Assembly (NCBI GenBank): GCA_021202925.1
Contig: JAJQCD010000010.1
Coordinates: 67,932 to 131,931 of the forward strand
Source: Clostridiales bacterium
GTDB taxonomy: Bacteria > Bacillota > Clostridia > Lachnospirales > Lachnospiraceae
DNA: 64,000 nucleotides
Direction: 5' to 3'
Shown here: positions 49,611 through 52,085 of the stretch, piece by piece
Layout: each line of letters opens with the position of its first letter
How positions within the stretch are numbered: position 1 is the stretch's first letter
Notes under the pieces: generated by a model
The model's database searches: none
What the model saw: only the letters and a program-made list of their open reading frames with translations
Told to the model about the DNA's origin: nothing
Position numbers and translations under genes: made by a program

Positions 49611-50084
49611 TTAAATTCCCATAATATTCCGGAAGTATGGTAATGTGGAAAATTGATATTTTCGGGTAAATTCTTTTGGATGAAGGAGAGCGGTTCCGTT
49701 TGTATGACCGATGTATGTATCCACATAGTTATTGACTTCCCGGACGATTGTTGGAAGGTTTTTGATCATTTCATTGTATTCGTCCTGGTCAACAATGGCT
49801 GCAGTAGTCGAATCAAGGTAACCAGGTTCCTTGATAATGACAATTTTTGAGTAATCCAAGCCTGAATTTATCCGTTTCGAGCGCTTCGTGTCGGAAAAAA
49901 GAAACGAATTTTTATGGCGGATACCCGAACGGAAAGGGACACATATAAAGTAATCCTCATGTGAGTCAATGAGCAGACATGTGTATGGTCGTCCCTGTTT
50001 GTACATTAACTCGGGATATGAGGAAATGGGATAGTCCTGCATAAATTTTGATGACAGGAGATATAAGTAAGAATCAAATTCCAT
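49611..50084 (-). CDS. Type III toxin-antitoxin toxin, ToxN/AbiQ/TenpN-like
   Basis: 157 residues, basic. The core FICVPFRSGIRHKNSFLFSD, then GLDYSKIVIIKE, is the kind of small barrel seen in endoribonuclease toxins of the ToxN superfamily; I think TenpN is closest but am not sure. The strongest evidence is context: just upstream on the same strand are a strong promoter, two 53-base direct repeats that fold, and a terminator hairpin, the layout of type III loci in which the repeated RNA neutralises the toxin and the terminator limits toxin read-through. ATG 50084 follows GAGG; the frame reaching 50129 runs into the terminator and is rejected. It should cut RNA, including its own antitoxin precursor. 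Confidence 0.8.
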   Translation of the reverse strand: MEFDSYLYLLSSKFMQDYPISSYPELMYKQGRPYTCLLIDSHEDYFICVPFRSGIRHKNSFLFSDTKRSKRINSGLDYSKIVIIKEPGYLDSTTAAIVDQDEYNEMIKNLPTIVREVNNYVDTYIGHTNGTALLHPKEFTRKYQFSTLPYFRNIMGI

Positions 50085-50100
50085 GTTGAAAACCTCACAT

Positions 50101-50135
50101 AAAAAGCGAGGATGGATGTATGAATCCAACCTCGC
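50101..50135 (-). terminator. Terminator between antitoxin RNA and toxin gene
   Basis: Minus strand: GCGAGG..GGAT, 6-base loop, ATCC..CCTCGC, one internal mismatch, then five T. The toxin start codon is only 16 bases beyond the T run, so toxin mRNA depends on read-through. Confidence 0.88.
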
Positions 50136-50143
50136 AGGATTGT

Positions 50144-50196
50144 TCTTCGCCCGGTCAGTTTTTATTTTACCGATGTGTCAGAACCGTCACACATCA
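50144..50196 (-). repeat. Antitoxin repeat unit 2 (toxin-proximal)
   Basis: 53 bases; stem GATGTGT/ACACATC on the minus strand. It matches unit 1 at 47 of 53 positions. Confidence 0.88.
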
Positions 50197-50249
50197 TCTT
50201 CGCCCGGTCAGTTTTTATTTTATCGACGAGTCGGAACCGTCACTCGTCA
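50197..50249 (-). repeat. Antitoxin repeat unit 1 (promoter-proximal)
   Basis: 53 bases; stem GACGAGT/ACTCGTC on the minus strand. Four of its six differences from unit 2 are two compensating base-pair changes in this stem. Confidence 0.88.
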
Positions 50250-50287
50250 TCATTTAGCGAAGACAAGAAATTGCTTCTTGTGTTTAT

Positions 50288-50316
50288 ATTATATGCGAAT
50301 TATAGTAATTATGCAA
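50288..50316 (-). promoter_or_regulatory. Promoter of the toxin-antitoxin locus
   Basis: Minus strand: TTGCAT (50316-50311), 17 bases, TATAAT (50293-50288). Near-consensus, as expected for an abundant antitoxin RNA. Confidence 0.88.
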
Positions 50317-51814: not shown

Positions 51815-51888
51815 CGAGGCGTGGCTCAGTTTGGTAGAGCGCTGCGTTCGGGACGCAGAGGTCGCAAGTTCAAATCTTGTCGCCTCGA
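51815..51888 (+). tRNA. tRNA-Pro (anticodon CGG)
   Basis: Full cloverleaf: acceptor CGAGGCG/CGCCTCG with A73, anticodon stem CTGCG/CGCAG around loop TTCGGGA, T loop TTCAAAT. CCA is not encoded. Confidence 0.95.
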
Positions 51889-51892
51889 TTTT

Positions 51893-51964
51893 GGCCTCGT
51901 GGTCAAGCGGCTAAGACGACGCCCTCTCACGGCGTAAACCCGGGTTCGATTCCCGGCGAGGTCA
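51893..51964 (+). tRNA. tRNA-Glu (anticodon CTC)
   Basis: Acceptor GGCCTCG/CGAGGTC (one G-T pair), anticodon stem ACGCC/GGCGT around CTCTCAC, T arm CCCGG/CCGGG-type with TTCGATT. Four bases after tRNA-Pro. Confidence 0.94.
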
Positions 51965-51967
51965 GTG

Positions 51968-51998
51968 GTGCTTTGGATATCATTCCAAGGCACTTTTT
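51968..51998 (+). terminator. Hairpin between tRNA-Glu and tRNA-Thr
   Basis: GTGCTTTGGA pairs with TCCAAGGCAC (10 pairs, one G-T), 6-base loop, five T. It looks like an intrinsic terminator for the first two tRNAs, leaving tRNA-Thr dependent on read-through or an unseen promoter. Confidence 0.8.
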
Positions 51999-52012
51999 CC
52001 CGAAAGGGATGA

Positions 52013-52085
52013 GCTTCCGTAGCGCAGCTGGTAGCGCAACGCATTCGTAATGCGTGGGTCGCCGGTTCGAATCCGGCCGGGAGCT
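52013..52085 (+). tRNA. tRNA-Thr (anticodon CGT)
   Basis: Acceptor GCTTCCG/CGGGAGC with T73, D stem GCGC/GCGC, anticodon stem ACGCA/TGCGT around TTCGTAA, T arm GCCGG/CCGGC with TTCGAAT. A run of six T follows at once and could end transcription. Confidence 0.95.

Follow-up and report, generated by a model that had tools for sequence, protein, structure and literature searches.

A TenpIN toxin-antitoxin locus from a Lachnospiraceae genome and its likely RNA decoys in phages

In the accessible parts of the literature on type III toxin-antitoxin pairs, the TenpIN system of Photorhabdus aborts phage infection (PMC5086642, PMC5377504), ToxI-type RNAs consist of units of 34 to 36 nucleotides (nt) in 2.8 to 5.5 copies (PMC5086642), and wild-type phage PhiTE carries 1.5 repeats, not one full pseudoknot, escaping only after expansion or recombination under selection (PMC3475682). 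In the available text of PMC10651486, solitary phage repeat units, the Racr RNA anti-CRISPRs, mimic a host defence RNA. Here we describe a locus on the minus strand of a 64,000-nucleotide stretch of a Clostridiales bacterium genome (assembly GCA_021202925.1, contig JAJQCD010000010.1; the whole stretch is called the window), running from position 50316 down to 49611, whose parts were located by direct reading and with tools (Table 1). By family and layout, the locus is a TenpIN member of the type III toxin-antitoxin pairs. Taking all parts jointly, we consider it highly probable that this is a TenpIN locus whose two-unit RNA likely inhibits a likely RNase with a predicted ToxN fold, and that related units carried by phages are likely decoys.

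The TenpIN locus and its repeat RNA

The 157-residue protein matches the TenpIN equivalog model NF047358 of NCBIfam with 165.5 bits, against a curated cut-off of 90. This is the only NCBIfam model listed up to an E value of 1, the presence of a ToxN or CptN model in that library being unchecked. Together with the order of repeat RNA, terminator and toxin, the match bears out the preliminary description of this DNA, which had proposed a complete type III toxin-antitoxin locus, either TenpIN-like or of a new branch; the former is retained, and a new branch is ruled out because the TenpIN model fits. A PADLOC match to CARF4--CARF_PDDEXK (14 bits, E 0.0056) was taken as chance. When the predicted protein model was compared with known structures by VIA-align, ranks 1 to 5 were taken by Bacillus thuringiensis ToxN, AbiQ, Escherichia coli ToxN, Pectobacterium ToxN and CptN, so that the ToxN fold expected from the outset is predicted. 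By analogy, this TenpN-family protein is likely an endoribonuclease.

The other parts first described were also found: the 5' hairpin at the RNA start, the two 53-base direct repeats (89% identical), the terminator ahead of the gene, and a start codon 16 nt past its T run. The promoter had been called near-consensus, which holds for the -10 hexamer and fails for the -35 hexamer (3/6), and the protein, described as basic, is neutral (18 K+R against 18 D+E, 4 H, isoelectric point 6.9). A consensus scanner listed neither the promoter nor the terminator, because its rules demand at least 4/6 per hexamer and, for terminators, a loop of 3 to 8 on a stem free of interruptions, and the terminator stem has one mismatch. 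The promoter is nevertheless credible, since 50 of 61 non-viral arrays are preceded by TTGNNN-16/18-TATAAT (at least 5/6), whereas the same sequences, when reversed, have it in 2 of 61. The RNA from 50281 to 50101 folds at -54.9 kcal/mol against a mean of -41.1 (z -3.1), beating 199 of 200 dinucleotide shuffles.

The window protein has one copy in its own genome and 451 homologues. In bacterial genome contigs, 41 toxin loci were found, most of them under the titles Lachnospiraceae, Oscillospiraceae or Clostridia; Streptococcus, Anaerovibrio and Phascolarctobacterium contribute one record each. Matches to the TenpIN model above its cut-off occur in 15 of 397 family genomes and 12 of 391 class genomes, and the toxin is present in 4 of 24 genomes of the genus, its own included. 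Distant relatives (29 to 37% identity) occur on 11 plasmid records; plasmids gave no repeat match. A tblastn search of INPHARED with the window protein gave no toxin match, and peptide patterns found no relative in viral contigs, a limit of the patterns, since two viral records (L063 and L054; L numbers designate loci) do hold the toxin. Among the 24 same-genus genomes, no empty insertion site was found and none matched both locus flanks. Three consecutive tRNA genes lie about 1.5 kb from the locus (51815-52085, plus strand).

The two units stand in tandem with a start-to-start spacing of 53 nt, and the same RNA is found upstream of relatives whose toxins are 41 to 78% identical. Unit length and count do differ from those of ToxI, as first remarked; two units are, however, no oddity, given that 53 of 62 non-viral arrays have two and the other 9 have one (ten loci repeating an already included place and spurious L085 and L042 rows were dropped before counting). 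Across 60 distinct units, the first stem is paired in 98.6% of the compared cells, with double-sided changes at 4 of its 7 pairs; the variants include GACGAGU, GAUGUGU, GUCCUGU, GUCGAGU, GAGGUGU, GACGUGU and others, each with a complementary 3' arm. The loop CGGUU is paired with a downstream RACCG in 99.3% of cells, whereas an alternative partner reached 43.1%. Changes in this loop helix comprise one double-sided case (L032, CGGCU:GGCCG) and 11 one-sided ones, in which U-A replaces U-G.

In some distant TenpI arrays (L071, L095, L090), compensatory pseudoknot changes occur between units of one locus, the helices of L071 being GGGUA:UGCCC and GGAUG:CGUCC. At a score of at least 18, a pseudoknot scan picked out 9 of 21 distant TenpI regions and 8 of 168 shuffled controls, leaving 12 of 21 regions without it; an earlier version gave at least 16 in 8 of 20, against 2 of 100 controls. 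No Rfam family was assigned to the RNA: only tRNAs reach the gathering score in the window, nothing does so over the units in 12 + 10 loci, and matches allowed up to an E value of 10 were at chance level.

The window units (50249-50144) differ in the stem, GACGAGU in the first and GAUGUGU in the second, and are nearly identical elsewhere. The same order recurs in many loci. One possibility is that the different stems keep the units from mispairing or recombining with each other.

The leader that precedes unit 1 is complementary to the tail following the last unit. In a set of 69 non-redundant arrays (91 rows held 70 non-redundant ones, from which a spurious L085 match was removed), the duplex of the two averages -10.3 kcal/mol, against -7.5 with the tails permuted, and none of 10,000 permutations was as good; the same was true of the 38 arrays that lack the common CUUCGY leader (-9.4 against -6.3, 0/10,000). 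For the 16 viral arrays alone, 1 of 10,000 permutations matched the pairing of the arrays' own leaders and tails. In 35 arrays, the tails of unit 1 and of the last unit differ in their first eight bases; the better partner of the leader is the last tail in 26 of these and the first tail in 4, the other 5 being ties. The two-unit RNA is predicted to form two pseudoknots inside a closing helix, a model in which the inter-unit junction GCGAAGAUGA would be single-stranded and the sole exposed unit boundary.

Phage units without a detectable toxin

In IMG/VR, a stringent unit pattern matches 25 stretches and a related pattern adds 2, giving 27 records; the first stringent pattern, reversed, had no match there. 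Two records, L063 and L054, hold the toxin and are complete TenpIN cassettes. No TenpN was found in any of the 23 unit-only records searched whole (of 25, with L065 and L068 excluded; lengths of 27-142 kb and 15-67 kb, many of them fragments), and both positive controls matched. In 19 of the 25 records other than these two, one full unit adjoins tRNA genes on the same strand and is enclosed by a closing helix of its own, such as CUACCC...GGGUAG, CUGUCC...GGACAG or CUUCACCA...UGGUGAAG.

A PHROGs scan of 20 neighbouring proteins identified a terminase and a portal protein in L046, L047 and L070, and a portal protein in L062. Among 45 phage records, the L047 terminase is similar, at 38%, to YonF of SPbeta (SPBc2), hence the label "SPbeta-like". 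A unit lies between tRNA-Phe and tRNA-Lys in 16 of 67 usable terminase loci (11 of 78 were unused, the gene start or its upstream being cut), with all seven stem pairs intact in the 16; the remaining 51 have none there. Four relatives with a 95% identical terminase lack the unit. The closing helices of these modules differ between groups yet still pair, and when the L196 and L217 slots are compared by eye, a module of about 70 nt is seen to have been swapped in one piece. The phage module looks like accessory cargo under an arms race. A wider viral pattern matched 40 stretches, of which 13 were new; at most 5 of 7 stem pairs were present in any of them, and no RACCG was seen by eye. Of 331 class genomes, 3 gave a TerL match at E 1e-60, the best being 52%, and no phage host was named among the TerL homologues listed, the best 120 of 1710. 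Bacterial L127, L129 and L131 also hold single orphan units, with no toxin match within about 1.5 kb; in L129, the unit is followed by what appears by eye to be a toxin stump.

A pattern for a second TenpI subtype matched 11 viral stretches. Eight have common flanks, with one unit each in L238-L240, L242, L243, L245 and L247 and two in L246; in L244, a cassette is truncated where the contig ends, and L241 and L248 look like chance. L239 is a 100% match to Clostridioides difficile phage phiCDIF1296T and also matches its kin. BLAST with the L118 RNA (89 records at E up to 10, of which the named phages and MT835727 were followed) found phiCDIF1296T, AR1086-1 and the complete-genome Enterocloster bolteae phages CB457P2, CB473P1, CB473P2 and CB473P3. 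The E. bolteae phages have no annotated feature at the unit interval. In the three of these four that were examined, the RNA has a promoter (TTGACA-18-TAGAAT) and two units, whose pseudoknot helices, UCAGG:CCUGA and UCGAU:AUCGA, are the same as in the toxin-linked L095 and MT835727.

No TenpN was found in the whole records of CB473P1, CB473P3, CB457P2, phiCDIF1296T, AR1086-1 and L246; the positive control MT835727, a viral record with a complete TenpIN cassette, scored 62.7 bits in the same search. By eye, the single unit of phiCDIF1296T resembles a fusion of the two of AR1086-1, and its loop helix would require two wobble pairs. Neither Enterocloster nor C. difficile is named among the second-subtype toxin homologues listed, the best 120 of 137. 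An unspecified toxin/antitoxin system is mentioned for big C. difficile phages in the available part of PMC5786514.

Other RNAs accompany these units. In three different phage contexts, skipping-rope RNA (Rfam RF02924) is a neighbour of orphan TenpI units, at a distance of about 34 to 200 nt; it was found in 5 of 20 scanned loci that have a unit and no toxin (three of the 5 being near-identical phages) and in none of 13 terminase-related loci without a unit. Blocks resembling CCUCCGGUGAAA and CAACGGGACUU mark an RNA, apparently structured and recognised by eye, that recurs in the same phage tRNA slot upstream of tRNA-Lys, with or without a TenpI unit (L160, L173, L178, L181, L175, L177), and had no Rfam match in those scanned (L178, L175, L177, L181). 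ROOL RNA occurs near the tRNA genes of relatives of the module phages (L166:1-361, L177:1-403, L213:3283-3859), and transfer-messenger RNA is also near the tRNA genes in L166 and L177.

Table 1. Features of the window locus (window positions) and skipping-rope RNAs of phage loci (positions within each locus)
Feature	Position	Strand	Basis or detail
-35 hexamer TTGCAT	50311..50316	-	direct reading; TTGNNN conserved upstream of relatives' arrays
-10 hexamer TATAAT	50288..50293	-	direct reading; 17 nt from -35; conserved position
5' hairpin, 7 bp, loop GCAAU, at predicted RNA start	50263..50281	-	reading and fold
Leader strand CUUCGC of predicted closing helix	50257..50262	-	minimum free energy fold; leader:last-tail pairing in relatives
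TenpI-type unit 1, 53 nt	50197..50249	-	stem 50248-50242 with 50231-50225
Unit 1 predicted pseudoknot	50239-50235 with 50209-50205	-	loop CGGUU with GACCG
TenpI-type unit 2, 53 nt	50144..50196	-	stem 50195-50189 with 50178-50172
Unit 2 predicted pseudoknot	50186-50182 with 50156-50152	-	loop CGGUU with GACCG
GCGAAG, predicted 3' strand of closing helix, end of last unit	50145..50150	-	fold and relatives' pairing
Intrinsic terminator	50101..50135	-	hairpin 50135-50106 (6 bp, one U.U mismatch, 5 bp), then five T
Ribosome-binding site GUGAGG (DNA GTGAGG)	50093..50098	-	direct reading
TenpN-family toxin gene, 157 aa	49611..50084	-	intact open reading frame, ATG at 50084
Skipping-rope RNA	L253:4111-4190	+	Rfam
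Skipping-rope RNA	L254:4108-4187	+	Rfam
Skipping-rope RNA	L255:2111-2190	+	Rfam
Skipping-rope RNA	L052:773-842	-	Rfam
Skipping-rope RNA	L058:11103-11175	-	Rfam

Proposed mechanism and alternatives

From the literature on ToxIN, CptIN and TenpIN, the two-unit repeat RNA likely binds and inhibits the toxin. The toxin would cut the precursor at the inter-unit junction, where a cut is expected because no other unit boundary is exposed in the model, and would then be held by the resulting pieces. Most transcripts would end at the terminator, placing the RNA in excess of the toxin; phage infection would stop the supply of the short-lived RNA, upon which the toxin would cut RNA and the phage would be blocked. 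A phage module, transcribed with the phage tRNAs or from its own promoter, would top up the antitoxin during infection. By analogy with the expanded pseudo-ToxI in PhiTE and the solitary anti-CRISPR repeats, the phage modules are likely natural antitoxin decoys.

We lean slightly towards a wider proposal, in which the natural stand-alone TenpI modules of large Firmicutes phages act as counter-defence RNA against TenpIN and as an uncuttable decoy, the phage tRNA arrays are islands of such RNAs, and the orphan Rfam family skipping-rope is the next candidate. The commonest module, a cassette of about 70 nt made of a closing helix and one pseudoknot and placed between tRNA genes, would be uncuttable because the closing helix hides the unit ends and there is no inter-unit junction. 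Phage tRNAs can themselves be counter-defence, according to the available part of PMC11555353.

Several observations weigh against these interpretations. The pseudoknot helix is nearly invariant across the 60 units, and because it hardly varies, an H-type pseudoknot is consistent rather than proven within the subgroup. The preference of the leader for the last tail softens when longer segments of 16 nt are compared (last 31, equal 9, first 11 of 51 two-unit arrays); the array of the window is one of the 11, by 1.0 kcal/mol, and its leader pairs about equally with the ends of unit 1 (-12.9) and unit 2 (-13.5). On the protein side, phmmer found no relative in PDB, no Pfam family was matched, and Foldseek alone gave no match below E 0.001, with MazF chains first and Pectobacterium ToxN fifth. 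Among the phages, pairs are broken in some copies (L053, L055, L078), and our searches did not show a matching toxin in a host of any orphan-bearing phage. The toxin profile missed the cut 63-residue toxin of L244, which the subtype profile found, so short toxin pieces can escape it. Finally, a single phage unit may be too little as an antitoxin; Pectobacterium ToxI needs 2.5 repeats, according to the available part of PMC5086642.

The phage units could be remnants of decayed TenpIN cassettes that drift without function. L069, in which two units precede a toxin start with only about 13 recognisable residues, and the similar-looking bacterial L129 (both judged by eye) would fit such decay, as would the degraded look of the L078 and phiCDIF1296T copies and the single pseudoknot pair broken in each of L053 and L055. 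We regard this as unlikely, since the intact stems at the one tRNA-Phe/tRNA-Lys site, the differing closing helices that still pair, the permutation result for the viral arrays and the persistence of promoter-bearing two-unit antitoxins without a toxin in three complete genomes of named phages all argue against drift.

It is equally improbable, in our judgement, that the modules are active but aimed at the toxins of rival prophages or plasmids, in anti-addiction or superinfection conflict, and not at chromosomal defence. Complete TenpIN cassettes in viral records (L063, L054, MT835727) and the distant toxin relatives on plasmids would provide such targets, whereas the 41 toxin loci in bacterial genome contigs may point to the chromosome; sequence does not separate these two targets.

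For the RNA itself, the GGU and ACC downstream of the stem could make a simple second hairpin instead of a pseudoknot, and this local hairpin is pairable in unit 2 of the window and in most relatives (85.5% of cells). We give this little credence, because its three pairs are broken in 5, 17 and 4 of the 60 units, whereas each loop:RACCG pair is broken in at most one, and because L071, L095 and L090 retain the loop:downstream helix through their compensatory changes. A reading of the window protein as a MazF/Kid-like mRNA interferase to which the upstream repeat RNA is unrelated, as the head of the Foldseek list might suggest, is very improbable and was rejected on the VIA-align ranking, in which the five type III toxins score 12.6-9.8 over nearly the whole chain against 6.2 for MazF; the TenpIN equivalog match and the recurrence of the RNA upstream of related toxins argue in the same direction.

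Comparison with known systems

The window locus is itself an ordinary new TenpIN member. It shares with TenpIN of Photorhabdus luminescens (NF047358) the curated toxin family and the order of repeat RNA, terminator and toxin, and differs as part of a Firmicutes subgroup with two 53-nt units. We know of no TenpIN structure. Compared with ToxIN and AbiQ (2xd0, 4ato, 7d8o, 4glk), the window toxin has 9-10% sequence identity in the structural alignment; CptIN (4rmo) has another toxin family and another RNA sequence. For ToxIN and AbiQ, the literature consulted makes no mention of a helix closing an array. Out of the ordinary is the RNA model for this TenpI subgroup, supported by covariation, in which one helix encloses the complete array.

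The phage modules resemble the pseudo-ToxI of PhiTE in being phage-borne type III antitoxin-like RNAs without a toxin, and differ in that most are full units, in natural phages of several contexts, and match the TenpIN family. With Racr they share the form of solitary phage repeat units as defence-RNA mimics, the target there being CRISPR-Cas and not a toxin. Within the literature searched, this is the first sign of natural phages keeping full antitoxin units without toxins in several contexts. Whereas PhiTE had to expand an incomplete pseudo-ToxI, the mimic is already built here, including in phages with named hosts and complete genomes, which makes RNA mimicry against type III systems in nature directly testable. 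The modules also suggest what unannotated RNA in the tRNA arrays of phages may do.
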